A DNA stretch of 24,267 nt from Candidatus Dormiibacterota bacterium. GTDB lineage: Bacteria > Chloroflexota > Dormibacteria > Dormibacterales > Dormibacteraceae. The stretch spans positions 50,496 to 74,762 of the forward strand of contig PLYD01000072.1 in the NCBI GenBank assembly GCA_003151665.1. Reading direction: 5' to 3'. Shown here piece by piece: positions 2,916-24,013 of this stretch (positions within the stretch are counted from its first letter, which is position 1; each line of letters opens with the position of its first letter). A model generated the notes under the pieces. The model was not told the DNA's origin and searched no databases. It was given only the letters and a program-made list of their open reading frames with translations. A program made the position numbers and the translations under genes.

Positions 2916-3275
2916 TTGAAGGTGGCAATCGTCGGGAGCCGGCACTTCTCCGACCCCGACCGTGTCAGCGACTACGTCGGTTCGTTGCCGCACGGCGCCT
3001 CGATCATCACGGGCAGCGCGAGCGGCGTCGATGCCGCGGCGACCAGGACGGCTCGCGCCAAGGGCATCCCGGTCCAGGTGATCCCAGCCTCGTTTGACGA
3101 GATGGCGGATCCCAAGAAGTCCGCGGCGCGAAACCAGCGCTTGATCGACGCGTGCGATGTGCTGGTCGCGTTCTGGGACGGTGCCTCGACCGGCACCCGG
3201 AACACGGTGGAGCGGGCGTTGGACTCGGGGAAAGAGGTGCATGTCTTCCTGGGTATCCCGCCCGCCGCTAAGTAA
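2916..3275 (+). CDS. Small SLOG-superfamily protein (DUF2493/YspA-like)
   Basis: A 119-aa Rossmann-like protein. It starts with a beta strand and nucleotide-loop motif (VAIVGSRHF), followed by ITGSASGVDAAA at 31-42, the RNQRLID helix at 72-78 and a DGASTGT loop at 88-94 that corresponds to the PGGxGT loop of LOG/DprA-like proteins. This matches the DUF2493/YspA branch of the SLOG superfamily, which is proposed to bind nucleotides or nucleotide-derived ligands; no specific reaction is established. The TTG at 2916 gives MKVAIVGSRHF, the expected N-terminus, only 4 bases after the pckA stop, so the two are probably co-transcribed. No clear Shine-Dalgarno sequence is seen. The fold is likely; the function is unknown. 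Confidence 0.8.
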   Translation: MKVAIVGSRHFSDPDRVSDYVGSLPHGASIITGSASGVDAAATRTARAKGIPVQVIPASFDEMADPKKSAARNQRLIDACDVLVAFWDGASTGTRNTVERALDSGKEVHVFLGIPPAAK

Positions 3276-3285
3276 CATTGGGGCG

Positions 3286-3981
3286 ATGGCAGTCGCGATC
3301 GCGGTGCGCGCGCGGCTCTTCGCCCGGTTGCGCGAGCAGGCCGGCACTGACACTGAGAATGTCGAGCTTCCAGCCGGGTCGACGGTGGCCGACGTCTACG
3401 AAGCGATCCAGAAGCTTCATCCAGGCCTGCAGGCCGACCAGAGCGCTGTTCGTGTCGCGCTCAATCAGGAGTTCACCGACTGGGACTCGAAGGTCGCTGA
3501 CGGCGATGAGGTCGCCTTCATCCCTCCCGTGAGCGGAGGTGGTCACGGCGCCGGTGTCCTCTTTGAGCTCACTGCGCGGCCGCTTGATGCGCGCCGGATG
3601 GAGGCTGCTGTCGCACATAAGGGCGCCGGCGCGATCTGCACGTTCACGGGCGTGGTCCGCGAGTCCTCGCGCGGCCGCTCGGTCACGCACCTCGAATACG
3701 AGGCCTACACCGAGATGGCCACCGCCCAGATGAAAAAGATTGCCGGTGAAATCGAGGAGAAATGGCCTGAAGCGCGCGTGGCGATGGCCCATCGCACAGG
3801 GCGACTGGAGATCGGCGAGCCATCAGTTGTCGTTTCGGTGTCGAGCCCACACCGCGCCGAGGCGATCGCGGCGTGCAAGTGGGGAATCGACCGGCTCAAG
3901 GAGACGGTGCCGATCTGGAAGAAGGAGCACGCCACCGATGGCACGTACTGGATCGAGGGGGACGAAGCGAAGTCACTCTAG
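3286..3981 (+). CDS. moaX: Fused molybdopterin synthase MoaD-MoaE
   Basis: A single 231-aa frame carries both subunits of molybdopterin synthase, which inserts the dithiolene sulfurs into precursor Z (cPMP) in Mo-cofactor synthesis. Residues 1-85 are MoaD (ubiquitin fold) ending in PPVSGG, with G84-G85. Residues from about 90 are MoaE, with its two catalytic lysines conserved as K205 and K212 in LKETVPIWKKE. In ordinary MoaD the Gly-Gly is the free C-terminus that carries the thiocarboxylate; here it is followed directly by GHGAG and MoaE. Mycobacterium tuberculosis MoaX has the same layout and must be cleaved after the diglycine to work, so processing is expected here (inference). The gene lies 10 bases after the SLOG gene and may serve the sulfite-oxidase-like enzyme at 22079. 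Confidence 0.95.
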   Translation: MAVAIAVRARLFARLREQAGTDTENVELPAGSTVADVYEAIQKLHPGLQADQSAVRVALNQEFTDWDSKVADGDEVAFIPPVSGGGHGAGVLFELTARPLDARRMEAAVAHKGAGAICTFTGVVRESSRGRSVTHLEYEAYTEMATAQMKKIAGEIEEKWPEARVAMAHRTGRLEIGEPSVVVSVSSPHRAEAIAACKWGIDRLKETVPIWKKEHATDGTYWIEGDEAKSL

Positions 3982-12399: not shown

Positions 12400-13364
12400 A
12401 GGGCCAGCGCGAGCTGTTCAGTGCCTTCCAGTGCGGACGCCTTGATGCCTCGCTTGCGCAGGTGCCGGGCGAAATCGTCGGTGTATCCGTGCACCGTGTA
12501 GACCTGCTCGGCGCCTGAACGCTCGACGACTTCGAGCAGCTCGTCGAAGTCGCAGTGATCTGAAAAGTCGAATGTGGCATCAGCCCCAAAGATTCGCGAG
12601 AACTCCGCATCTTTGGCCCAGCCCGAGACCAGAGCCGTGCGGTAGCGACCTAGCCTGCGCACCTCGTCCTTGCCAGCGGGCGGCGCGATCACCACGCGAC
12701 CGGGCTCGACCTCACCGTCGAGCTCGACCCAATCCGGGAGTGACCTACCGGCCATGGCGTACGCGTGCGCGCAGGGGACACACCGTTTCTCCAGCGCGAA
12801 CTTGAAGCCGTAGCCGGACAGCGCGAGCATGATCTCCTCAGTTTTGCCCAGCGCGTGGCACAGAAGGACCGGCGTCACGCGGCTGTCGATGGCGAGGCGG
12901 CACCAGCGCGCGATCGCCTCGATCGTTGAGTCAGGGTCGCCGAAACGGAAATGAGGCCGGCCGTAAGTGCTTTCAATGACGAGGACATGCGCCTTGGGCA
13001 CATGGGTGGGCTGCATGCCGCCAGGCTGGCGAAGCTTGATGTCGCCGGTATAGAGAACCTTCGTGCCCTGATGCTCGAACAAGAGCTGCGCCGAACCCAG
13101 CATGTGGCCGGCCGAATGCAGGGTGACGGTGGCCGGGCCGATCCGCATCGGCTCGTCATACCCGAGCATCCGCCAACCACGGGGGCGCCTCGCCTCAGGA
13201 ATGAGGGCAAGTGTTTGCGGGGTCAGCAGCGCCTCCTTGTGGCGCCGCGCGTGATCGGTATGCGCGTGCGAGATGAACGCGAAAGTTCGAACCACCAGCG
13301 GGTCAAGCCACAACCGATGCCCTGCGATAGAAACGCCGCGATCCCAGATGACCTGTGTGCTCAA
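12396..13364 (-). CDS. Beta-CASP MBL exonuclease, DNA ligase-associated type
   Basis: A 322-aa metallo-beta-lactamase/beta-CASP nuclease. Metal-site residues are HAHTDH at 33-38, H87 in SAGHMLGSAQ, D108 in YTGDIK, H270 in SDHCDFDEL and H292 in VHGY. The sequence resembles the ligase-associated DNA-damage-response exonucleases found beside ATP-dependent ligases, related to SNM1/Pso2 and to mRNA 3'-end-processing nucleases. It likely trims DNA ends or crosslinks before ligation (inferred from family and neighbours). The start is TTG at 13364, overlapping the stop of nnrE as TTGA. The ligase-associated Lhr-like helicase that often completes such clusters is not in this window. Confidence 0.9.
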   Translation of the reverse strand: MSTQVIWDRGVSIAGHRLWLDPLVVRTFAFISHAHTDHARRHKEALLTPQTLALIPEARRPRGWRMLGYDEPMRIGPATVTLHSAGHMLGSAQLLFEHQGTKVLYTGDIKLRQPGGMQPTHVPKAHVLVIESTYGRPHFRFGDPDSTIEAIARWCRLAIDSRVTPVLLCHALGKTEEIMLALSGYGFKFALEKRCVPCAHAYAMAGRSLPDWVELDGEVEPGRVVIAPPAGKDEVRRLGRYRTALVSGWAKDAEFSRIFGADATFDFSDHCDFDELLEVVERSGAEQVYTVHGYTDDFARHLRKRGIKASALEGTEQLALAL

Positions 13365-14056
13365 CTCTTGAAACCGCTCACCTGAAAGATGTCGCCCTTC
13401 GCGAACAGGTCACGCGGCACCTCGACGCCAACGGCGGCGTATGCCTCTAAAGGGACGCCGATGTCTGCGAGCCACACATCGCCGGCCTTCGCCGGACCGT
13501 CGCCTTTCAACAGGCCGGGCTTGGCCAGGCCGAGGGTCACGGTCGTGTTCGCGCGCACACATGGAGCGTAGGCGACCCCGGTATCGGCGTCGAGGCCGGA
13601 AGGCACGTCGATTGCGATCACTCGCGATGGCGAGTCGTTTATGGCTTCGATCCACGCCGCGAATTTGCCTTCGGGCGCTCGAGACAGCCCGGTTCCGAAC
13701 AGCGCATCGACCACGACCTCGGCGCCATCCAGCCTCAGCTCGTCGGAGATATCGACCCCAAGCCTGCGCAGGGCGTCCCTCTCCAGAGCCGCCGCTCCAC
13801 GCAGCCGGTTGGCATCCACGCAACTGACCGCGCTAAGCCGGCCCCAACGATGGAGGTGCCGCGCAGCTGCTAGCCCGTCGCCGGCGTTGTTGCCGACGCC
13901 GCAGACGACTGCCGTCCTCCCCTCGCAAAAGCGGGCGACCTGCCAGCCGGCCGCCTCCATCAGCCATTCGACGGAGATGCCGAACCGCTCCTGCGCCAGG
14001 CGGTCGACCTCGGCGACCTGCCGGCTAGTGAGCGTCGGTGGGGCGCTGAACGACAA
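13361..14056 (-). CDS. nnrE: NAD(P)H-hydrate epimerase (YjeF N-domain only)
   Basis: A 231-aa protein that interconverts the R and S forms of hydrated NAD(P)H (NAD(P)HX) so that a dehydratase can repair it. Motifs are GVGNNAGDG at 53-61, DALFGTGLSR at 117-126 and the catalytic AIDVPSGLDADTG at 148-160. Only the epimerase domain is present; the NnrD dehydratase half found fused in many bacteria is absent and must be encoded elsewhere. The start is taken as TTG at 14056, which overlaps the upstream regulator gene by 32 bases; no better start gives the full N-terminal helix. It is coupled to the exonuclease gene by TTGA. Confidence 0.9.
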   Translation of the reverse strand: MSFSAPPTLTSRQVAEVDRLAQERFGISVEWLMEAAGWQVARFCEGRTAVVCGVGNNAGDGLAAARHLHRWGRLSAVSCVDANRLRGAAALERDALRRLGVDISDELRLDGAEVVVDALFGTGLSRAPEGKFAAWIEAINDSPSRVIAIDVPSGLDADTGVAYAPCVRANTTVTLGLAKPGLLKGDGPAKAGDVWLADIGVPLEAYAAVGVEVPRDLFAKGDIFQVSGFKS

Positions 14057-14769: not shown

Positions 14770-15084
14770 ATGACGATGATCAAGCAGGCTAGCCGCGCCA
14801 TCGAGCACATGACCGCACGCGAGCGTCGCGTCCAGCGGGCCAAGTACGCGCGCCGCAACAAGATGCACTACATCGACAAGCTCCTGAACGAGCTCGAGAT
14901 GCTGAACCTCGCCGACCAGAGGCAGATGCCGCCCGTCCTTTCGGTGGCGATCAACAAGGTGATCGAAGAGTCGCCCGAGGTCACAGTCCTGGCACAGGCC
15001 AAGCCCGGCTCCGTGATGGAGGCGATGGACGCCCTGTACGAGATCCAGGACAGCCTGATGTACAACCAAATAGAAGACGAGTAA
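14770..15084 (+). CDS. Small helical protein of unknown function (104 aa)
   Basis: A basic, mostly helical 104-aa protein. Residues 1-35 are rich in Arg and Lys (TARERRVQRAKYARRNKMHY), followed by an acidic Leu/Met-rich helix, a VLSVAINKVIEESPEVTVLA segment and an acidic C-terminus ending SLMYNQIEDE. No signal peptide, membrane segment or known motif is seen. Start choice is firm: GGAGAG lies 6 bases upstream and a strong promoter precedes it. It is divergent from the SufR-like regulator, so Fe-S or redox-linked control is possible. Its last codons and terminator are duplicated at 23449-23535. High expression is implied by the promoter; no function can be named. Confidence 0.8.
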   Translation: MTMIKQASRAIEHMTARERRVQRAKYARRNKMHYIDKLLNELEMLNLADQRQMPPVLSVAINKVIEESPEVTVLAQAKPGSVMEAMDALYEIQDSLMYNQIEDE

Positions 15085-15142
15085 CTAGCCCTCGCAGTCT
15101 TCTTAAGGCCGGTTTCGAATACGATTCCGATCTTTTCTTTGC
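15056..15142 (+). repeat. Left copy of direct repeat: gene 3' end plus terminator
   Basis: Aligns without gaps to 23449-23535 (offset 8393) with 66 of 87 bases identical by eye. It includes a perfect 24-base block (15106-15129) and an 11-base block, CTTTTCTTTGC. The repeat covers the last nine sense codons' region of the 104-aa gene, its TAA stop and the terminator hairpin. Differences in the coding part are mostly synonymous (CAA/CAG, GAA/GAG). Confidence 0.85.
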
Positions 15143-15404
15143 TTGGCCTGGTCCGCGCACCCAGTTGCAACCAGATCGGGTACGCGAACTCGGACCTTAT
15201 GCGGTCATGTAGTAACCAGATCGGTTTGTAACCGTTCTCTTGACAACCAGATAGATCACGGGCGGCACAGCCTCCAAAGGCTCGGGAGAGGCGCTGACGA
15301 TCCTCTCGAGGAGGAACAACGGACTCGGACGCGCTGACACCGGATCCCCCGGCGCCCTATTTCCGTGGACACCTGTTTGGGAGCTAGTCTCCCTGGGACA
15401 GGAG
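15085..15404. other. Gene-free stretch with short dispersed repeats
   Basis: After the terminator no convincing coding region is seen. AACCAGATCGG occurs at 15169-15179 and 15214-15224, with a variant AACCAGATAG at 15245-15254. The gene end itself (AACCAAATAG, 15064-15073) and the right repeat (AACCAGATCGA, 23457-23466 region) are related. A small hairpin CGGTT-TGT-AACCG lies at 15222-15234. From about 15255 to 15360 nothing is recognised. Confidence 0.5.
15106..15142 (+). terminator. Rho-independent terminator of the 104-aa gene
   Basis: GGCCGG (15107-15112) pairs with CCGATC (15127-15132) with one G-U pair and one mismatch. An inner TCG-AATA-CGA stem-loop adds to it, and TTTTCTTT follows. 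The stem is weaker than in the right-hand copy, where it is perfect. Confidence 0.7.
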
Positions 15405-15410
15405 GTGTCC
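15367..15410 (+). promoter_or_regulatory. Nested hairpin that holds a transposase ribosome-binding site
   Basis: The outer stem is GGACACCT (15367-15374) with AGGTGTCC (15403-15410), perfect over 8 bp. The inner stem is GGGAG (15379-15383) with CTCCC (15389-15393) around CTAGT. The perfect Shine-Dalgarno AGGAGG at 15400-15405 overlaps the right arm, 5 bases before GTG 15411. Such structures are common just inside the left end of insertion sequences and limit transposase translation. Confidence 0.6.
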
Positions 15411-15548
15411 GTGAAACCAGCAGACGTCGCAGCAAACAACGAAGACCGAGGTCGTTTCTCAGCTCGTCGTAAGACCAAAGCCATCCTTCGGTTGCTCCGA
15501 GGAGAGGACATCGATGTCGTCTCCCGCGAGCTCGGTGTCACCGCTGCC
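15411..15548 (+). pseudogene. Truncated transposase OrfA (IS3-type HTH domain)
   Basis: From GTG 15411 the frame encodes a basic N-terminus and then RKTKAILRLLRGEDIDVVSRELGVTAA (residues 20-46, here split by its motifs RKTKAILRLLRGED and SRELGVTAA). This is the helix-turn-helix start of OrfA-type transposases, in which GVTAA is normally followed by the recognition helix. Here the homology stops at residue 46 and the frame continues through unrelated sequence to a stop at 15707. The catalytic DDE part (OrfB) is missing from the whole window. It is a dead insertion-sequence remnant. The break coincides within one or two bases with the start of the hairpin-rich segment at 15550. Confidence 0.7.
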
Positions 15549-15549
15549 T

Positions 15550-15701
15550 GTGGGATGCAAATATCCCACCACGGGTCGACCGGGGAACTCACTACGGCCA
15601 TCGAGTGGCCGTTCGGGCACGCTCCCGGGAGATCACAAGGGAGTAACCGGCATGTCGATCGAGCGAAGAATCGCTATGCCGCCGGAGCATGGTTCCGGGC
15701 G
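15550..15701 (+). ncRNA. Hairpin-dense segment, candidate structured RNA or element remnant
   Basis: Five stems lie in about 150 bases. They are GTGGGAT/ATCCCAC (15550-15556 with 15563-15569), GGCCA/TGGCC (15596-15600 with 15606-15610) and CTCCC/GGGAG (15622-15626 with 15639-15643, or the self-palindrome CTCCCGGGAG). The fourth is CGGCAT plus AGCGA with TCGCTATGCCG (15648-15653 and 15662-15666 with 15671-15681). The fifth is CGCCGGA/TCCGGGCG (15680-15686 with 15694-15701). No credible protein is encoded. The family is unknown; the strand is chosen only by neighbour direction, and stems alone do not prove an RNA. Confidence 0.35.
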
Positions 15702-15829
15702 CCTTGAAACGTCGACTGCTAGCCTAGACTCGCCTTGAATTCCAGTCCATCTTCGGCGAATGCCCAGCTTCATCAACTCGATGGGCGGCTGTTCCGAATC
15801 CAGGTGCCGGTGCGAGAGCTCGGCTAAGC
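15702..15829. other. Non-coding spacer before the CMD-family gene
   Basis: No gene is recognised. A weak promoter-like pair (TTGAAA near 15704 and TAGACT near 15726) has a short spacer of about 15 bases, so it is not called. The ribosome-binding site before the next GTG start is poor. Confidence 0.4.
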
Positions 15830-16357
15830 GTGGCGAGGCTGCCGTATGTACAAGCGGGGACATCGCCGGCGGTCGACGGTCTCTACACCGAGGTCGCGCG
15901 CATGGGCCGGTCGGTGCTCAACCTCTATCGGGTGCTGGCCAACCAGCCGCCGGCGTTGGCGGCGTTCCTCGAGATGTCGCGATACGTAAGGTCACAGTCG
16001 AGCTTGGACCCAGGCCTGCGTGAGCTAGTGATCCTGGCCACCGCCCACGAGCTGGGCCAGGAGTACGAGATTACTCATCACACCGAGGCGGCGGAGCGGG
16101 CGGGAGTCTTGCCCGAAAAGGTTGCGGCGACCGCGGCGGCCAGCTCGCTCGACACGCTCACTCCGCTCGAGCGCAGTGCGGTGGAGTTCGCTCGGCAGGC
16201 TGCGCGCACGCGCTCGTGCGATGAAGTTTTGTTCCTCAGCCTTCGCTCACTCTTCTCGACGGAGGAGATAGTGGACCTGGTGGTGACGACGGCCTGGTAC
16301 CACCTGTGCGCGGTGATCCTTAACTCGCTGGAGGTGGAGCTGGAGGCGGAACGCTAA
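15830..16357 (+). CDS. Carboxymuconolactone decarboxylase (AhpD-like) family protein
   Basis: A 175-aa all-helical protein of the CMD/AhpD superfamily. The signature helix region is LRELVILATAHELGQEYEITHH (residues 61-82, read as RELVILATAHELG plus YEITHH), with the conserved Glu and His pair. A later helix, EEIVDLVVTTAWYHLCAVIL, is also typical. The CxxC of peroxidase-active AhpD is absent, so a decarboxylase or other small-molecule lyase/hydrolase role is more likely than disulfide reduction. The GTG at 15830 gives a plausible N-terminus; GAGAG lies about 12 bases upstream, so the site is weak. The gene stands alone between a transposase remnant and the ABC transporter operon; its substrate is unknown. 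Confidence 0.85.
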   Translation: MARLPYVQAGTSPAVDGLYTEVARMGRSVLNLYRVLANQPPALAAFLEMSRYVRSQSSLDPGLRELVILATAHELGQEYEITHHTEAAERAGVLPEKVAATAAASSLDTLTPLERSAVEFARQAARTRSCDEVLFLSLRSLFSTEEIVDLVVTTAWYHLCAVILNSLEVELEAER

Positions 16358-16443
16358 TGATCGCGAGCAGGACGGTCGATGAAGCTTCGCGGTTGAGCGC
16401 CTTGTTCAAGGGCCGTCGCGCTGTCGGATGGAAGTGGTGGTAG
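16357..16443 (+). CDS. Possible 28-codon coupled ORF
   Basis: The ATG at 16357 overlaps the TAA of the CMD gene as TAATG, the classic reinitiation arrangement. It encodes a 28-residue basic peptide ending in GWKWW. No family is recognised. It could be the remnant of a longer gene cut by rearrangement, or chance. Reported because of the overlap geometry. Confidence 0.25.
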   Translation: MIASRTVDEASRLSALFKGRRAVGWKWW

Positions 16444-16725
16444 TCAGTAGGCCAACCAAAGCGATAGCCAGAGCGCTACCATTGGCATGGCGATTCGGGT
16501 TGGGTATGCAAAGTCCATCGAGTTTGTAGTCGAAATCGCAAACGCGCCATTGCGAACGATCTGTGCCGATGGCCCATCGACACGATATCTGATCGCTTCA
16601 ACGGGTCGGCCAAGACGTACGACCGCCTCTGGATGCAGCGCTTCATCTTCGCCCAGTCCACCAGGCGGTACTGCAATTGGCAGAGCAGGAGATTGCAGTG
16701 CCTCGGCGAACAGCCAACATCGCTC
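16444..16725. other. Gene-free stretch upstream of the transporter operon
   Basis: Several frames are open here, but none has a ribosome-binding site, plausible composition or a recognisable motif. Small inverted repeats (for example TAGC/GCTA near 16455-16475) are weak. It may be decayed coding sequence, in keeping with the accessory character of the surroundings. Confidence 0.4.
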
Positions 16726-16754
16726 TTGCGGAGCTTACAGCAATCGTGTACATA
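16726..16754 (+). promoter_or_regulatory. Candidate promoter of the ABC transporter operon
   Basis: TTGCGG (16726-16731), an exact 17-base spacer and TACATA (16749-16754) lie 41 bases before the first gene. Spacing is ideal and both boxes are moderate matches. Confidence 0.45.
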
Positions 16755-16755
16755 T

Positions 16756-16791
16756 CGAAGCGTCTGCGTAAATCAGACTTCGAAGGAGGAG
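16756..16791 (+). promoter_or_regulatory. Leader hairpin abutting a strong ribosome-binding site
   Basis: CGAAG-CG-TCTG (16756-16766) pairs with CAGACTTCG (16774-16782), with a two-base CG bulge and a 7-base loop. The Shine-Dalgarno AAGGAGG (16783-16789) begins at the next base and lies 6 bases before the ATG. The hairpin may stabilise the mRNA 5' end or modulate initiation. Confidence 0.5.
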
Positions 16792-16795
16792 TGCC

Positions 16796-18046
16796 ATGAC
16801 CCATCGACCGCATGCATCCTTGTGGATTGCGAGTGTCCTCGCTCTTGCCGCCGCCGGCTGCGGCGGGGGCTCCACATCTTCGGGAGGATCGACGGTGACC
16901 TTTGCCGCTCCGGTCTCTCAGACCGGAGCGTTCGGGCAGGCTGAGGGCCTTTACACCCTTCAGGGCTACAAGTTCTGCGTCCAAACCTTCAACTCGGCAG
17001 GTGGCATCACTTTCGGTGGTAAGACGCATCAGCTCGCCCTAGTGACTCAGGACGACCAGAGCGTTGCGGCCACCTCTGCCCAGATCGTCGATCAGTTCAA
17101 CGACCAAGGCGACAAGCTCATCCTCGGCCCATACGGTTCGCCGGCGACGACGGCCGTCGCGCCGGTGGTCGAGCGAAATGGGCAGGTTATGGTCGATAGC
17201 AACGGCGCAGACACGGCTATCTTCACCCACGGCTACAAGAACACCTTTGCCGTGCTTTCGCCAAGCAGTGCCTACGTCACCGCCATCGTCGACGCCCTGG
17301 CGGCGCTGAACCCGGCTCCCAAGACCATCGCCGTCATCGCCGCCAACGATGGCTTCAGTCAGCACGCCGCCGAGGCGGGTGTGAGTGAGGCACTGGCAAA
17401 GGGCATGACAGTCGTACCGTCCGCAAATGCCTACACCTCCTCGACCAAGGTCGCAGCCAATACCACCGACGTGTCAAGCGCACTCATCGCGATCAAGGGC
17501 ACCAACCCGGACGTGATCATCATCTCCGGACACCTGAACGAGGCGGTCGCCGCCGTCAAGCAGAGCTCTGAGCTCGGAGTGACGCCAAAGTTGGGCTTTG
17601 CAGCCACCGTGGCTCCACCAACTCCCGCATTCATCACCGCTCTCGGAAAGTCTGCGGAGGGTGTCATCGGCAGCACCCAGTGGGTGCCCGAGTTGTCCGG
17701 CTCGGACAACATCTTCGGTAGCGCCAAGCAGTTCTTGACCAACTTCACCAACACCTATGGTTGGGCTACAACTCAGTACCCATACCAGGCCGCGGATGCG
17801 GCTGCGGCATGCGAAGCGTTGGCGCTGGCCATCGAGAAGGCCGGTTCAACCGATCCAGCCGCGGTTCGAAGTGCGCTCGCCGGACTGAGCGCCGACACGT
17901 TCTACGGCCACATTCAGTTTGACTCGACAGGACAGAACAGCACCAAGCCGATGGCCGTGATCCAGATCCAGAAGGCGTCCTTCGTCACGATCTACCCCAG
18001 CAACCTGGCCACCAAGCCCGCTGTCTGGCCTGCCATCTCCTCTTGA
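16796..18046 (+). CDS. ABC transporter substrate-binding lipoprotein, branched-chain amino-acid (HAAT) type
   Basis: A 416-aa extracytoplasmic solute receptor that delivers ligand to the permease pair downstream. The N-terminus is a lipoprotein signal peptide: THR start region, a hydrophobic stretch and lipobox LAAAGC with acylated C22, then a Gly/Ser linker. The mature part is a type I periplasmic-binding fold of the Leu/Ile/Val family; FAAPVSQTGAFG opens the first lobe and GPYGSPATTAVAPVVE matches the ligand-binding strand region. Ligands in this family include amino acids, urea, short amides and aromatic acids, and the sequence does not decide which. It is the first gene of the five-gene operon; its TGA overlaps the TTG start of the first permease. 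Confidence 0.94.
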   Translation: MTHRPHASLWIASVLALAAAGCGGGSTSSGGSTVTFAAPVSQTGAFGQAEGLYTLQGYKFCVQTFNSAGGITFGGKTHQLALVTQDDQSVAATSAQIVDQFNDQGDKLILGPYGSPATTAVAPVVERNGQVMVDSNGADTAIFTHGYKNTFAVLSPSSAYVTAIVDALAALNPAPKTIAVIAANDGFSQHAAEAGVSEALAKGMTVVPSANAYTSSTKVAANTTDVSSALIAIKGTNPDVIIISGHLNEAVAAVKQSSELGVTPKLGFAATVAPPTPAFITALGKSAEGVIGSTQWVPELSGSDNIFGSAKQFLTNFTNTYGWATTQYPYQAADAAAACEALALAIEKAGSTDPAAVRSALAGLSADTFYGHIQFDSTGQNSTKPMAVIQIQKASFVTIYPSNLATKPAVWPAISS

Positions 18047-18930
18047 GCCAGTTCCTCCAGGCGGCAGCCTACGGCGTCATCCAGGGCGGCTTGCTCGCCC
18101 TGGTGGCCGTGGGCTTCTCGCTTGTCTGGGGAATCACGAACATCATTAATCTGAGCCATGGATCGCTGGCCATAACCGGCGCCTACCTGGCCTGGTTGTT
18201 GAACGTCCAGTTCGGCATCGATCCGTTCCTGTCCATCCCCATCGTCGCCGTCTGTCTGTTCGTGCTGGGATACCTCATCCAGCGAGGGCTGATCAACCTT
18301 GTCATCAACGCTCCGATCTTTCTCACCTTGTTGCTCACCTTCGGGCTCAACCTGGTGATTCTCAATGTTCTGCAGCTCATCTTCACCGCCGATGACCGCT
18401 CCATCGAAACCACCTACGCATCCCAAAGCTTTGTCGTCGGCACAGTCAACATTCCTTATGGCCGCCTCGCGGCTTGCCTCCTCGCGGTTGTCATAACCGT
18501 GCTCCTGGCGGTGATCATGAACCGCACGCGCCTCGGCCGCGCCATCCGTGCCACCGGGATGGATCGCGGCGCGGCCAGGCTGATGGGGATCCGCGCACGC
18601 CATGCCTACGCGATGACTTTTGGGATCGCATCGGCGCTGGCCGGGATCGCGGGCACGATGATCGCGACCGTCGGATCTTTCAACCCCACGACCACTCCCA
18701 CGCAGCTCACCTTCGACGCCTTCGTGATTTCAGTCCTAGGCGGCCTGGGCAACATGTACGGCGCGCTTGTCGGTGGCTTGGTGCTTGGCGTCGCCGAATC
18801 GCTGGGGGGGCTCCTGCTGACCGGCACCTGGGTGAATGCGATCGCGATGGCCGTTCTGATCATCACGCTGATCGTTCGGCCCTCGGGGCTAATTGGTAAA
18901 GCGCTCTATGGCGGGCGAGTGGAGGTGTGA
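18043..18930 (+). CDS. livH: HAAT ABC transporter permease, LivH type
   Basis: A 295-aa inner-membrane permease with eight or so hydrophobic segments. The N-terminal GVIQGGLLALVAVGFSLVWG and NLSHGSL (residues 36-42) are hallmarks of LivH. The EAA-like coupling region is around GRAIRATGMDRGAARLMGI near residues 165-183, and FVISVLGGLGNMYGALVGG follows. It forms the channel with the LivM-type subunit. Start TTG 18043 overlaps the previous stop as TTGA. The symbol denotes family position; substrate is not established. Confidence 0.93.
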   Translation: MSQFLQAAAYGVIQGGLLALVAVGFSLVWGITNIINLSHGSLAITGAYLAWLLNVQFGIDPFLSIPIVAVCLFVLGYLIQRGLINLVINAPIFLTLLLTFGLNLVILNVLQLIFTADDRSIETTYASQSFVVGTVNIPYGRLAACLLAVVITVLLAVIMNRTRLGRAIRATGMDRGAARLMGIRARHAYAMTFGIASALAGIAGTMIATVGSFNPTTTPTQLTFDAFVISVLGGLGNMYGALVGGLVLGVAESLGGLLLTGTWVNAIAMAVLIITLIVRPSGLIGKALYGGRVEV

Positions 18931-20003
18931 GCACCGCCGACCAACGAGCGCCTCTGGCCGCGATCCTTCACGGTCAGCGGCGCAGCCGACAAGAGCAACT
19001 GGTTGAGTGGATCCGATCGCGGACATTGGCCAACTCATGGCCGCTGCTCGTTGGCATTGCGGCCTTGCTGGCCATGGTCGGCCTGCAGCAGGTGATCGAG
19101 CCCGGGACGCAGCGCCTGCTCACTTCCGTCTTCATGTTCGTGGCGCTGGCTCAGGGGTGGAACATCATCGGCGGCTACACCGGGTATGCAAGCTTTGGTC
19201 AGGTTGTGTTCTTCGGCCTGGGCGCTTACGCGGCTGCAGTCCTTATGACCAACTATCACGTCTCGTTCTGGATCGCGATGCCGTTTGCCGTCCTGTTCGG
19301 CACGACATTCGCAGTCGTGATCGGAGTGCCGCTCCTGCGCTTACGCGGCCACTATTTCGCGATCGCGACCTTGGGAGCTGCTGTGGGCGCCCAGGAGGTC
19401 ATCACCAACCTCACCCCAATCACGGGTGGTGGCGGTGGCATCACGATTCCGACTTTTGGCCTACAGGCGCCCACCGCGTATCTGGGCAAGCCCGGCTTCT
19501 ACTTGGCGTTCCTTATGGTCGCGGCCGCGTCGGTTGCGATCGCCGCCATCCTGTCTCGAAGCCGATTCGGCTACGCCATGGTGGCGGTGCATCAGGATGA
19601 GGACGCCGCGGGTGCGATGGGCATCAACACGACGACGGTCAAAGTGATCGCCTTTGGCGTGTCGGCCGCAATTGTCGCGTGCGCCGGCGCCTTCTACGCC
19701 TTCCAGCAAATCGAGTTCTACCCGACCGACGTTTTCGACGTCAACTTCACCGTGTTGATGGTGATCATGGTGGTGATAGGAGGCAGTGGGACGGTAATCG
19801 GTCCTTTGTTCGGTGCGATCGGGCTTGAGCTTCTTTCACAGTTCCTCCGGGTCAATCTCGGAACTTACAACCAACTCATTTTCGGCGCCATCATCGTTGT
19901 GGTGGTGATTCTCTTTCCGCAGGGCGTCGTCAACTTCTTCCGCGATGCCATGCGCACGCGCCACCTCTCGGTCCTGGACAACGTCAAGCGGTATCGGCTT
20001 TGA
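18927..20003 (+). CDS. livM: HAAT ABC transporter permease, LivM type
   Basis: A 358-aa membrane permease, the second channel subunit. It has a roughly 40-residue cytoplasmic N-terminus before the first helix, then YTGYASFGQVVFFGLGAYAA, LRLRGHYFAIATLG (the LivM cytoplasmic loop motif), SRFGYAMVAVHQDEDAAGAMGI (the coupling helix) and GGSGTVIGPLFGA near the C-terminus. The GTG at 18927 overlaps the livH stop as GTGA; GGAGG is immediately upstream but only one base away, so initiation probably depends on coupling. Ends in TTGA overlap with the first ATPase gene. Confidence 0.93.
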   Translation: MSTADQRAPLAAILHGQRRSRQEQLVEWIRSRTLANSWPLLVGIAALLAMVGLQQVIEPGTQRLLTSVFMFVALAQGWNIIGGYTGYASFGQVVFFGLGAYAAAVLMTNYHVSFWIAMPFAVLFGTTFAVVIGVPLLRLRGHYFAIATLGAAVGAQEVITNLTPITGGGGGITIPTFGLQAPTAYLGKPGFYLAFLMVAAASVAIAAILSRSRFGYAMVAVHQDEDAAGAMGINTTTVKVIAFGVSAAIVACAGAFYAFQQIEFYPTDVFDVNFTVLMVIMVVIGGSGTVIGPLFGAIGLELLSQFLRVNLGTYNQLIFGAIIVVVVILFPQGVVNFFRDAMRTRHLSVLDNVKRYRL

Positions 20004-20797
20004 TCGCCGAGCCAGCCGGCAGGAGCACGAGCTCGCCGCCGGCACCCATCGCGAATGCGATCCTGGAAGTGCGTAACTTGTCCAGGCGCTTTGGCGGGTT
20101 GTGGGCGCTGCGTGACGTCACCTTCTCCGTCGCCGAAGGTCAGATCGTCGGGATCATCGGTCCCAACGGTGCCGGCAAGAGCACGCTCGTCAATCTGATC
20201 ACCGGTCATTTTCGTCCCACAAATGGCCAGGTTTTGATCGACGGGAAGGATGTTACGGGAGCGCGGCCGTGGGTCATTGCACACGAGCGCGTGGCCCGAA
20301 CATTTCAGATCGTGAAGCCATTTCGCGGCCTGACCGTTCGTGAGAACGTGGCCATCGGTGCGATGCATGGCAACGACAGGGACCACAGTGTTCGGGACGC
20401 TCTTGCCACTGCTGACGAGCTCCTCAACCTGGTTGGCATCGCCCAGCATGCGAAGGCTGCGCCAAGCCATCTGAACATCGCCGACGCCCGGCGGCTCGAG
20501 CTGGCCAGGGCGCTCGCCTGTCGGCCGCGTCTACTGCTCCTGGACGAGGTCATGGCCGGCCTCAGGCACCAGGAAATCGACGCGGCGGCCCAGCTGATCC
20601 ACCGGCTGCGCGACAGCGGCATCACAATCGTCGCCATCGAGCACGTGATGAAGGCGATCATCTCGATCAGCGACCACGTTCTCGTCCTCCATCACGGGTC
20701 GATCCTCGCCGAGGGTCCGCCCCGTCAGGTGCTCGCCGACCAACGGGTGGTCGAAGCCTACCTCGGCCATCGATACGCGCGACGGAGCTCGCGATGA
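20000..20797 (+). CDS. livG: HAAT ABC transporter ATPase, LivG type, with a non-standard signature
   Basis: A 265-aa cytoplasmic ATPase. Walker A is GPNGAGKST at 54-62, the Q-loop Gln is Q103, Walker B is LLLLDE at 178-183 with catalytic E183, and the H-loop is H215. The EVMAGL segment is typical of LivG. The ABC signature, normally LSYGQ or LSGGQ, reads LNIAD at 158-162 while the following RRLELARAL is intact. Related divergent signatures exist in some LivG proteins, so this may be a subfamily trait and not a defect. TTG 20000 overlaps the livM stop. It pairs with the LivF-type ATPase that follows. Confidence 0.93.
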   Translation: MIAEPAGRSTSSPPAPIANAILEVRNLSRRFGGLWALRDVTFSVAEGQIVGIIGPNGAGKSTLVNLITGHFRPTNGQVLIDGKDVTGARPWVIAHERVARTFQIVKPFRGLTVRENVAIGAMHGNDRDHSVRDALATADELLNLVGIAQHAKAAPSHLNIADARRLELARALACRPRLLLLDEVMAGLRHQEIDAAAQLIHRLRDSGITIVAIEHVMKAIISISDHVLVLHHGSILAEGPPRQVLADQRVVEAYLGHRYARRSSR

Positions 20798-21498
20798 GCC
20801 TTCTCGAGGTGCGCAAACTCACCGCCGGCTACGGGCGCATCGAGGTGTTGTGGGACGTAAGCCTGCAGATCGAGCCAAATCAGATAGTGGCGCTTGTCGG
20901 CGCCAACGGCGCGGGCAAGACGACACTGCTCCGCGCGATCTCAGGAATGATCGCCGGCAAATCCGGCAGCATCTGTCTCCAGGACCGCGAGATCACCCAT
21001 GCATCGATTGAAACCATTGTCGACCTCGGCATCGCTCATGTACCTGAAGGTAGACGCCTGTTCTCGGGACTCACAGTGCGCGAGAACCTGCTGCTCGGCG
21101 GCTGGCGACTGAGGAACGGCGATCTGGATCGAGTCATAGAACTGTTTCCGGTCCTGGGCCAGCGGATCAATCAGATCGCAGCCACCATGTCTGGAGGCGA
21201 ACAGCAGATGTGCGCGATCGCGCGCGGTCTGATGAGTAAGCCGATCCTGCTGATGATTGACGAGCTGTCTTTAGGTCTGGCCCCCAAGGCAGTGGACGAG
21301 ATTGTCATGCGGCTCCCCGACATCACCGCGTCAGGAAGTGCTGTTCTGCTCGTCGAGCAGGACATCGATATCGCCCTGACCGTATCAGAGCACGCGTACG
21401 TACTTGAGTCGGGGCGGATAACGATGTCTGGCCTTTCGACACAACTGCTGGCTGATCCGCTGATCCAGCAGACCTATCTCGGTCTCGCCCCCGGCTGA
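20794..21498 (+). CDS. livF: HAAT ABC transporter ATPase, LivF type
   Basis: A 234-aa ATPase with Walker A GANGAGKTT at 36-44, the family motif AHVPEGRRLFSGLTVREN at 81-98, canonical signature MSGGEQQ at 132-138, Walker B ILLMIDE at 151-157 and SLGLAPK. In the heterodimer with the LivG-type subunit, its normal signature would complete one ATP site while LNIAD of the partner completes the other (inference). ATG 20794 overlaps the previous stop as ATGA. A 6-bp inverted repeat (CCGGCT 21491-21496, AGCCGG 21515-21520) begins inside the last codons and may be a weak terminator, with only a short T-run. Confidence 0.94.
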   Translation: MSLLEVRKLTAGYGRIEVLWDVSLQIEPNQIVALVGANGAGKTTLLRAISGMIAGKSGSICLQDREITHASIETIVDLGIAHVPEGRRLFSGLTVRENLLLGGWRLRNGDLDRVIELFPVLGQRINQIAATMSGGEQQMCAIARGLMSKPILLMIDELSLGLAPKAVDEIVMRLPDITASGSAVLLVEQDIDIALTVSEHAYVLESGRITMSGLSTQLLADPLIQQTYLGLAPG

Positions 21499-22078
21499 TC
21501 GAAATGCTCGCTCGAGCCGGCTTTGACCCATACGGAAACTACCGCAGAACTACTGCAGTAGGACATCGCCGTTGTCACATTTACTCCGGGCGAGGGCGAA
21601 CTTTGAATTCAAAATCGGGGGCCCGGGATTGTTTGACCCATCGATCGAGCAGCATGTCGGTGCAATTCAGAACCGCCGGACAGCGCAGGCCGGGTAGCCC
21701 GGATCGCGCGATGAGCTTTCAGTGGGCGTGCCAATAAGCCATCGACGCAACCGCGCCAGCCCGGATACCTTAAGCACTTTCGAATGATGCCCTTGACGGC
21801 ACCAAATCGGGATGGGCCCAGCCGCCGCATCCAAGAGTCTGGTTAGGATTTGCAGGCCATCCCGCTAGGCCCTCGTCGCGTTGGATTGCTCTTCCCAAAT
21901 CCTCCGCTGAGCACCTGGCAGGATCTCGCGTTGGTTGACCGTGACGATAGCCGAAAGCCGGAAAGCTTTCGAACCACATACTGCTGCGGTCCGTGTATGT
22001 CGCCCATGGGGCACCGACGGCGGCGCCTGGTTGAATTACAGTAAGTTCGACGTTGCTGCTGCCTGGGAGAAATAAGGC
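21499..22078. other. 580-base gene-free stretch with palindromes
   Basis: No coding region is convincing on either strand; a minus-strand frame over 21770-22240 overlaps the sulfite-oxidase gene and shows no known motif. Perfect palindromes are CTACTGCAGTAG (21550-21561), TTTGAATTCAAA (21602-21613) and GAAAGCTTTC (21961-21970), plus CCGGG-TAG-CCCGG near 21692. They could be regulator sites for the downstream enzyme. The region may be decayed sequence. Confidence 0.4.
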
Positions 22079-23221
22079 TTGACTGGGAGGGTCACCGATT
22101 CGCTTCCGGCGGGAACCCTGATTGACGTTCCCGAAATCACGCAAAGCGAGCTGCAACTCGCGGTTCGCAACCATTCCATGCCGCTCGAGGCCCTCCGGTA
22201 TGCGATCACTCCGATTGGCCTCCACTACCTGCTGATCCACTTCGATATTCCAGCCGTTGATCCCAACGATTGGACTCTCACCGTCGGCGGCCGTGTACGC
22301 AACCCCATGCGGCTAACCCTGGAACAGTTGAAAGCCAGACCGTCAACAACGATCGCGGTGACCCTCGAGTGCGCTGGCAACGGCCGGGCTCGGCTTTTAC
22401 CTCGCCCGCTGAGCCAGCCGTGGCTGGTCGAGGCAGTTGGAACGGCCGAATGGACGGGTACTCCCCTACGACGCCTACTGGACGAGGCCGAGCCCCTCAA
22501 CCACACGGGCGATGTCGTGTTCACGGGACTCGATCGGGGCATGCAAGGCGATGTCGAGCAGCAGTACGAGCGAAGCCTGCCAGTTGCGGAATGTCGTCGC
22601 GACGAAATCCTGCTCGCTTACGCCATGAACGGGCAACCATTGGCTCCGCAGCACGGTTTCCCGCTGAGGCTTATCGTCCCAGGCTGGTATGGGATGGCCC
22701 ATGTCAAATGGCTTCGCGCGATCACTCTGCTCGATGACACCTTTCTTGGCTATCAGCAGGCAACCGCCTACCACTACCGCCTTTCGGACGATGACCCTGG
22801 CGTGCCAGTTACGCGGGTTCTTCCGCGAGCGCTGATGGTGCCGCCGGGGATTCCGGACTTTATGTCTCGCGTTCGATTTTTAGGACTGGCTCGGGAGGTC
22901 CTTACCGGTCGCGCATGGTCTGGTTGCGCACCTATTGCGAAAGTTGAACTCAGCGTGGACGGAGGTCTAACGTGGACTGCGGCCACGCTCGGGAATTCGG
23001 TATCACCTTATGCGTGGCGCTCATGGAGCTATGTCTGGGATGCGACAAAGCCTGGCGAGTACGAGCTCTGCGTGCGCGCTACGGATGGGGCAGGCAATGT
23101 CCAGCCGACCCAGCAAAATTTGAATCTCGAGGGGGTCCTGAATAACTCCGTTCAGCGAGTGCAAGTCGTGGTCGTCGATTCTGGTCATCAGATTCAAGCT
23201 CCCGCCGACCAGCGACCCTAA
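22079..23221 (+). CDS. Sulfite-oxidase-like molybdopterin oxidoreductase
   Basis: A 380-aa enzyme with the sulfite oxidase fold. Residues about 35-225 form the Mo-pterin domain with molybdenum-ligating C98 in TLECAGNGR; GTAEWTGTPL and PLAPQHGFPLRLIVPGWYG are further family motifs. Residues about 240-360 form the Mo-co dimerisation domain (AKVELSVDGGLTW). Likely reactions are oxidation of sulfite or reduction of a related oxo-substrate. There is no Tat or Sec signal and no haem-binding motif, so a cytoplasmic enzyme with an external electron partner is suggested; many relatives are exported. Start TTG 22079 follows GGGAG by about 10 bases; the start is uncertain. The cofactor synthase gene at 3286 would serve it. 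Confidence 0.9.
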   Translation: MTGRVTDSLPAGTLIDVPEITQSELQLAVRNHSMPLEALRYAITPIGLHYLLIHFDIPAVDPNDWTLTVGGRVRNPMRLTLEQLKARPSTTIAVTLECAGNGRARLLPRPLSQPWLVEAVGTAEWTGTPLRRLLDEAEPLNHTGDVVFTGLDRGMQGDVEQQYERSLPVAECRRDEILLAYAMNGQPLAPQHGFPLRLIVPGWYGMAHVKWLRAITLLDDTFLGYQQATAYHYRLSDDDPGVPVTRVLPRALMVPPGIPDFMSRVRFLGLAREVLTGRAWSGCAPIAKVELSVDGGLTWTAATLGNSVSPYAWRSWSYVWDATKPGEYELCVRATDGAGNVQPTQQNLNLEGVLNNSVQRVQVVVVDSGHQIQAPADQRP

Positions 23222-23448
23222 GTCCGGTCCCAGACCAGAACGGACGTCGCCTTGCGATCGAAAGCTGGCGATATCGAATCCGTTATCGACAGCATGTGTC
23301 AGCTTGAAATACGTATCGCCGTTCGCGACGACCGCTAGTTCTGCAATCGGCGATCGAACCTTCGGCAAGGCCTCGTGGGGTGGCAAAAGTCCAAATCCCC
23401 ATCAGGCGGCACGTTAGGCGCTGTTAAGAGCCTGATGTTCAATCCGCG
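23222..23448. other. Spacer between the molybdoenzyme gene and the right repeat
   Basis: No gene or clear terminator is recognised. At 23431-23448 the text CCTGATGTTCAATCC resembles the start of the right repeat itself (TGATGTACAACC), a partial tandem near-duplication shifted by 18 bases. Confidence 0.4.
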
Positions 23449-23477
23449 TGATGTACAACCAGATCGAGGACAAGTAA
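23449..23477 (+). pseudogene. 3' remnant of a second copy of the 104-aa gene
   Basis: ATG-TAC-AAC-CAG-ATC-GAG-GAC-AAG-TAA encodes MYNQIEDK and a stop, matching the MYNQIEDE end of the 14770 gene. Third-position changes are mostly synonymous, so this was once coding sequence. Nothing upstream matches the rest of the gene. Confidence 0.65.
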
Positions 23478-23498
23478 CCCGCTCTAGGGAAGACTCCG

Positions 23499-23535
23499 AG
23501 GCCGGTTTCGAATACGATTCCGGCCTTTTCTTTGC
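23499..23535 (+). terminator. Rho-independent terminator, perfect stem
   Basis: GGCCGG (23500-23505) pairs perfectly with CCGGCC (23520-23525), with an inner TCG-AATA-CGA stem-loop, followed by TTTTCTTT. It now stands just before the promoter of the GntR gene and would insulate it from upstream transcription. Confidence 0.85.
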
Positions 23536-23540
23536 CTTCC

Positions 23541-23570
23541 TTGACAAAATAAAGGCGACCGTGCTAGTGT
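23541..23570 (+). promoter_or_regulatory. Promoter of the GntR-ABC operon (nearly leaderless)
   Basis: TTGACA (23541-23546), an 18-base spacer and TAGTGT (23565-23570). The expected transcription start is about 23577, only some five bases before the ATG at 23582, and no Shine-Dalgarno sequence exists. Translation of the first gene is therefore probably leaderless or nearly so. Confidence 0.7.
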
Positions 23571-23590
23571 CCTAGTGATCTATGACACTA
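23565..23590. promoter_or_regulatory. Inverted-repeat operator for the GntR regulator
   Basis: TAGTGTC (23565-23571) and GACACTA (23584-23590) are perfect 7-bp arms separated by 12 bases. They cover the -10 box, the start point and the start codon. CTAGTG is repeated once more inside the spacer. YtrA-type GntR repressors bind AGTGTA-like inverted repeats at their own promoters, so autorepression is likely. Confidence 0.7.
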
Positions 23591-24013
23591 GTGCACTCGC
23601 GAGGTACTACAGGCGCGATCACCTTTCGCAAGGACACGGCCTCGGGGTTGACCCAGTACCTGCAACTCGTGCAGCAGGTCACGCATGCGCTCCGCCTCGG
23701 CCAATTGAAAATGGGGGATCGGCTACCGACCGTCCGCGACGTCGCGGCTCAACTTGCAATCAACCCCAACACGGTGCTGAAGGCCTACCGACACCTGGAG
23801 ATGCAGGGTCTCCTCGAGAGTCGGCCTGGGACCGGGGTCTTTGTGGCGATGGAGTTGCGCGGGCCATCATCACACGACCAAGCCGCACTTCGGCGGGAGC
23901 TGTTGCGATGGCTCGGCCACGCCAAGGACGCAGGTCTAGACGCCGAGGGCGTGCAGGCACTGTTCGCAGATACGAGCCGGCAGTACGCCATAGATGAAGT
24001 GGTGGCGTCGTGA
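23582..24013 (+). CDS. GntR-family transcriptional regulator, YtrA subfamily
   Basis: A 143-aa regulator with a winged HTH at about residues 22-90 (GDRLPTVRDVAAQLAINPNT, then YRHLEMQGLLESRPGTGVFV) and a short helical C-terminal dimerisation tail, the layout of the YtrA subfamily. Such proteins usually repress an operon of ABC transporter genes that follows their own gene, and respond to cell-wall stress, antibiotics or unknown ligands. The gene starts about five bases after the predicted transcription start inside a perfect inverted repeat, and overlaps the next ATPase gene as GTGA. The family is firm; the inducer is unknown. Confidence 0.93.
   Translation: MTLVHSRGTTGAITFRKDTASGLTQYLQLVQQVTHALRLGQLKMGDRLPTVRDVAAQLAINPNTVLKAYRHLEMQGLLESRPGTGVFVAMELRGPSSHDQAALRRELLRWLGHAKDAGLDAEGVQALFADTSRQYAIDEVVAS

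Follow-up and report, generated by a model that had tools for sequence, protein, structure and literature searches.

Cis-mobilizable elements (CIMEs) are described, in the sections cited here, as elements that lack integration and transfer genes, retain the attachment sites attL and attR and undergo accretion at a gene end (PMC5704250). The ssrA islands of Dehalococcoides are bounded by repeats of the 3' end of that gene, and 15 of them carry no integration module and are considered by the authors, in the part of the paper cited, to be possibly cis-mobilizable (PMC3146451). PAISt of Streptomyces lies at the 3' end of bacA and has a tyrosine recombinase, and its decayed relatives retain an integrase remnant and degenerate attachment (att) sites, according to the relevant sections of its description (PMC4057263). 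Here we report a comparable locus in a stretch of 24,267 nucleotides (hereafter the window) from a soil bacterium of the Dormibacterota, in which the segment between two copies, A (15056-15142) and B (23449-23535), of the end of a conserved gene for a 104-amino-acid protein (p104) is very probably an integrative island that entered p104 at its 3' end through site-specific recombination of the tyrosine-recombinase type and whose integrase has gone.

The likeness to a CIME lies in the attL/attR flanks, the lack of integration and transfer genes, the position at the 3' end of a conserved gene and the intact state of that gene, and the difference in the target gene and the lineage, the locus being CIME-like here by sequence alone; the sections cited add that such decayed elements often stand in tandem with others by accretion (PMC5704250). 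Because it yielded no integrase or transfer gene, the segment is taken as fitting a CIME-like decayed island, a kind already known, with a new attachment gene. With the Dehalococcoides islands, as far as the cited sections describe them, it shares the location downstream of one gene, the repeats of that gene's 3' end and a metabolic cargo, whereas those islands involve a transfer-messenger RNA gene and a serine recombinase and the window a protein gene, with a tyrosine recombinase in the related genome G004 (PMC3146451). PAISt, again on the sections cited, is alike in its tyrosine recombinase, in the use of a protein gene's 3' end and in att sites made of duplicated gene ends, and differs in its size of hundreds of kb and in its unrelated target gene and cargo (PMC4057263). 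Among the literature matches listed there was no paper on integrative elements or genomic islands of the lineage studied here, which is no proof of absence.

The lineage of the host is known in this analysis solely through metagenome-assembled genomes (MAGs); the hosts of the Dehalococcoides islands are Chloroflexota. Comparisons were made with 35 loci of relatives (34 Chloroflexi/Dormibacterota MAGs and one Bacillota, L032) and with sets of 110 genomes of the class and 42 of the family, and the neighbourhood survey covered 36 loci, namely these 35 and that of genome G034 (locus L068). Locus L027 belongs to genome G004. The closest relative, L001, is one of the Dormibacterota and showed 96.4% and 94.0% identity over two upstream stretches of about 5 kb each.

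Direct comparison of A and B bore out the duplicated gene end and terminator described in an earlier interpretation of the window (the sequence-only reading), with 66 of 87 bases identical in an ungapped alignment at an offset of 8393 bases. No other ungapped 87-base pair in the window scores as high (runner-up 61, between two ATP-binding cassette (ABC) ATPase genes; maxima of 47, 48, 48 and 49 in four first-order Markov sequences of equal length). The pair opens with a 13-base identity, TGATGTACAACCA, and contains the previously noted 24-base block, AGGCCGGTTTCGAATACGATTCCG (15106-15129 and 23499-23522); the similarity breaks off abruptly on the left (15056 and 23449) and ends shortly past 15142 and 23535. 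When the 26-base terminator GGCCGGTTTCGAATACGATTCCGGCC was searched in seven relatives with up to three mismatches, it was present as a single copy in two and missing from five; since none of these seven genomes had more than one copy, a dispersed or repetitive extragenic palindromic (REP)-type repeat was rejected.

A parallel case in another species was provided by G004. There, an intact p104 is followed by a terminator, a repeat array and a gene for a 307-amino-acid tyrosine integrase (PF00589), and the XerC-like gene xer is absent from the 10 kb available. On another contig, a DNA search revealed a second, short p104 match in which the last codons are cut at the same base as in B, followed by another terminator, a gene for a cyclic-nucleotide (cNMP)-binding protein and xer, which are the native neighbours of p104 in relatives. 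The ten bases before the core in B, TCAATCCGCG, are the same as those in G004, TCAGTCCGCA, save for two purines (consensus TCARTCCGCR). The 3'-end signature of p104, with one mismatch allowed, was found at 34 places in 33 of the 110 class genomes, with two copies in G004 only, and an attR-side pattern built from the window and G004 matched exactly, by construction, in G004 alone. The G004 element occupies no less than 30.1 kb of one contig and 1.06 kb of the other; the proteins it encodes include Replic_Relax and coupling-ATPase-like proteins, and it is plausibly conjugative or mobilizable. For integrative elements of the Dormibacterota, the comparison narrows the putative attachment site to 13 bases and supplies a candidate integrase, and thereby a candidate integrase-attB pair. 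Viral elements were also considered and rejected: six relatives of the integrase occur in viral contigs, the best at 53% over residues 55-306, and the att pattern had no match. Another relative of the G004 integrase (47%) lies about 11 kb from p104 in genome G001.

The reading frame of p104 is intact to 15084, and its product has no match at E 0.001 in Pfam or NCBIfam. The upstream neighbours (at least the exo and naxE frames) are conserved in 34 of the 35 relatives' loci, L035 having the p104 match alone. Downstream, a convergent xer is present in 27 of the 36 loci, distant ones included (as a 24-residue piece in L009 and as partial pieces at contig ends in L012 and L017); of the nine loci where it was not found, L002, L018, L022, L024, L033 and L035 have 1.6-5.1 kb of downstream sequence and L027, L028 and L034 have 10 kb. 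The gap between p104 and xer ranges from 73 to 6405 bp across the 27 loci, with 87 and 73 bp in the distant L031 and L032, and amounts to 140 bp in L001, which is empty with respect to the window segment. Many gap genes are common to clades, including the cNMP-binding gene (16 of 36 loci); the interval is variable, yet no free-for-all, and the idea of a random hotspot was mostly rejected on this ground. Empty relatives had been expected in which p104 is followed directly by the operon of a GntR-type regulator and an ABC ATPase: the empty site was found in L001, and the predicted arrangement failed, as GntR adjoins p104 in none of the 35 loci, the two always lie on separate contigs in the eight family genomes that match both, and the next gene in L001 is xer. 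Two full-length copies of p104 were found in none of the 38 family genomes, out of 42, with a match (DNA search; MAGs may be incomplete), and the search for degenerate second copies in the gaps of other relatives gave nothing convincing (at best 17 of 26, reached in six gaps, where a single shuffle of each gave 14-16). The tyrosine recombinase beside p104 in L001 was rejected as the integrase of the element, being XerC-like (best model TIGR02224, below cut-off) and occupying the same position in 27 of the 36 loci. The region 10453-20312 of L001, past xer, is perhaps a prophage: it contains another tyrosine recombinase (12674-13726), at 31% to the one beside p104, and, at 14876-16669, a long frame that looks tape-measure-like by eye, no family search having been made.

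The two copies could be assigned to the element and to the resident gene from their sequence and surroundings. Relative to L001, the p104 of the window has 8 differences in its first 298 bases and 3 in its last 17; these three are synonymous, giving CAA ATA GAA, and occur together in none of the 33 class genomes that have the site (ATA occurs by itself in G013, and a GAA in G005). Over the last five codons B differs from L001 once and A three times, and the 3' untranslated region (UTR) score against L001 is 28 for B and 20.5 for A; in this UTR comparison seven of the nine relatives gave B a better score than A, and the scores of B peaked with L020 and L017. These findings agree with the sequence-only reading, which had suggested different homologous genes as the source of the two ends. 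Past the terminator of A, the att-proximal DNA matches G034 (90%) and G004 (86%) over 50 bases at the same place; the repeat spacings of 45 and 31 are in common with G034 and that of 31 with G004, where the array lies between p104 and the integrase gene and thus inside the element. Since the array after its terminator matches DNA inside the G004 element, A is read as the element side, attL; B, with the usual codons and the G004-like ten bases before the core, is for those reasons read as attR, and the exchange is placed in the 13-base identity. The repeats AACCAGATCG (15169-15258, beside attL) resemble the target's own end, ACAACCAGATCG (15056-15080); the array may represent integrase arm sites or a regulator's operator, and its position inside the G004 element is independent of this choice. 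In G034, the p104-xer interval holds an AbiEi/AbiEii toxin-antitoxin pair adjoining the same array, with a single p104 end, and this locus may be an island that occupied the same site and has decayed further.

Taken together, comparison among genomes supplies the att geometry, the integrase element at the same base in another species, the element-end sequences on both sides and the empty relative, all consistent with the earlier suggestion of an element in the 3' end of a gene. In the mechanism we propose, an island of 8393 bases, counted from crossover to crossover, would have integrated into the 3' end of p104, the strands being exchanged inside TGATGTACAACCA; the element would have supplied its own last codons, stop and terminator (A, attL), keeping p104 intact, and the resident end (B, attR) would have been shifted 8.4 kb downstream. 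The missing integrase was presumably of the G004 kind, and its loss may have been connected with the insertion sequence adjoining attL. That the island may still be movable in trans, in the manner of a CIME, is something we only infer.

Several observations weigh against this reading. The 21 mismatches among the 87 bases of A and B exceed what would be expected of a recent insertion. No integrase or integrase remnant was detected in the segment, as the sequence-only reading had already held in proposing a lost mobiliser, and the G004 integrase and 19 relatives searched against it gave nothing convincing (lowest E 0.34; 0.20 right of B). G004 is one clear parallel case only, its att copies lie on different contigs with the joining DNA out of view, and the attR-side pattern at three mismatches occurred in six other genomes (reversed control, one genome) with no third case among them. 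The UTRs of L016 and L023, two of the nine relatives, are nearer A than B. The UTR of B fits L020 and L017 better than L001, and its terminator equals the element-side terminator of G004 over 26 bases, that of L001 differing at 3, both of which suggest more than one event. GntR-ABC being non-native, the DNA on the right does not amount to a plain empty-site flank. Furthermore, the tails beside the G004 integrase and beside the G034 array carry the usual codons; judging from these tails, the odd codons of A belong to the window's island and are no mark of an element family. They are not common to related elements and therefore lend slightly more weight to homologous or illegitimate recombination with a donor p104 end, which would have added accessory DNA with no integrase, in an interval that is merely variable. 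The wide range of the p104-xer gap with its clade-shared genes, and G034 with its array and AbiE pair and no second copy, would fit that explanation; we nevertheless consider it unlikely, as it leaves unexplained the cut point shared with G004, the G004 integrase and the shared TCARTCCGCR end.

Less probable still is a deletion between tandem p104 paralogues that left a truncated B, the genes between being ordinary chromosomal ones. Such a deletion would likewise yield a cut 3' end with a terminator, and B does have normal p104 codons; we regard it as highly improbable given that two full copies were not seen in the 38 matched family genomes, incomplete as these may be, that G004 repeats the cut point and the element-end bases beside an integrase element, and that the empty relative lacks these genes at the locus. 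Insertion of an integrative island by a tyrosine recombinase would be extended rather than opposed by a composite of two islands, in which A-B is the younger and the GntR-ABC side represents older remains at the same site (tandem accretion). We give this composite close to an even chance: xer does not appear in the 732 bp that follow B in the window, none of the 35 relatives has GntR at its p104 locus and the terminator of B is of the G004 element-side form, whereas a third att copy is missing from the window, which ends 732 bases past B, and the array does not follow B. More tentatively, p104 might be a dedicated docking gene of repeatedly arriving and stacking elements, each leaving its own last codons and terminator, with the AACCAGATCG repeats copying the target end and integrase-less islands perhaps being moved by incoming relatives.

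Table 1. Positions of the features at the p104 locus in the window.
Feature	Position	Strand	Basis or remark
p104, conserved gene for 104 amino acids; target whose 3' end is the putative attachment site	14770..15084	+	378 homologues
Putative attL core TGATGTACAACCA	15056..15068	+	strand exchange placed inside; second G004 copy cut at the same left edge
Probable element-borne replacement of the p104 3' end (CAA ATA GAA GAC GAG TAA), 3' UTR and terminator	15069..15142	+	comparison with L001
Probable element DNA close to att, with three copies of the AACCAGAT(C/A)G repeat (beginning at 15169, 15214 and 15245)	15143..15258	+	
Insertion-sequence remnant (end and start of transposase frame)	15345..15548	+	74.6% to insertion-sequence end G031:C13, 205 columns
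Carboxymuconolactone-decarboxylase (CMD)/AhpD-like protein (cargo)	15830..16357	+	PF02627, E 1.9e-16
Short relic of another sequence	16570..16662	+	85% over 95 columns to G032:C259
Periplasmic substrate-binding protein, branched-chain-amino-acid-type ABC transporter (cargo)	16796..18046	+	PF13458, E 1.6e-41
LivH-like permease	18043..18930	+	PF02653
LivM-like permease	18927..20003	+	PF02653
LivG-like ATPase	20000..20797	+	PF00005, PF12399; LivG best NCBIfam model, below cut-off
LivF-like ATPase	20794..21498	+	PF00005
Sulfite-oxidase-type molybdoenzyme (cargo)	22079..23221	+	PF00174, E 2e-56; PF03404; SorA best NCBIfam model, below cut-off
Putative right element end TCAATCCGCG, adjoining core	23439..23448	+	TCAGTCCGCA at the same place in G004 attR
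Putative attR core TGATGTACAACCA	23449..23461	+	13 of 13 core bases identical to attL, by sequence
Probable former p104 3' end, moved downstream, with its terminator (codons CAG ATC GAG as usual, then GAG to AAG)	23462..23535	+	
GntR-type regulator opening the operon right of attR; accessory, not a native neighbour	23582..24013	+	PF00392

The content of the segment (Table 1) largely confirmed what had been read from the letters, as Pfam matches identified the transporter operon and the molybdoenzyme between the repeats, and the supposed dead transposase was recognized as an insertion-sequence remnant, which begins 87 bases past the array and whose counterpart in G031 has a first frame matching HTH_Tnp_1. 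The proposed check of guanine-plus-cytosine content gave a value for 15143-23448 (0.610) below that of 68 overlapping left-flank windows of equal length (0.651-0.657), which speaks for the island reading. No integrase, transfer, structural, replication or conjugation genes were found in the segment (Pfam on the main frames; short frames not all scanned) and no tRNA or Rfam features in the window. In the absence of an integrase gene within it, the segment is not classed, on its predicted genes, as a complete integrative and conjugative element, integrative and mobilizable element or prophage. Homologues of the cargo were present in the 42 family genomes, among the matches listed, at 74-76% in six for the liv operon, in more than 20 for the molybdoenzyme and in four for the CMD gene, and the three modules lay on different contigs within each genome, MAG contigs being short; the exception was G016, with a weak liv-like match (67%, 283 bases) on the molybdoenzyme contig, about 129 kb apart. 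The cargo thus seems to have been brought together and not passed down as a unit, and the locus suggests how genes for a transporter and a molybdoenzyme, separate in relatives, can come to share one place. Elsewhere in the window, a single frame at 3157-3981 combines ThiS-family and MoaE domains and is a candidate fused molybdopterin synthase, in the same window as the molybdoenzyme.

Downstream of B, the GntR gene is followed by that of an ABC ATPase. Homologues of GntR occur in 29 of the 110 genomes (best 73%, in G021). The stretch right of B consists of additional accessory DNA and may be an older island. Before the GntR gene, the stretch 23562-23588 has CTAGTG/CACTAG inverted repeats and shows 92.6% conservation across 27 bases in G021; it looks like the regulator's operator.

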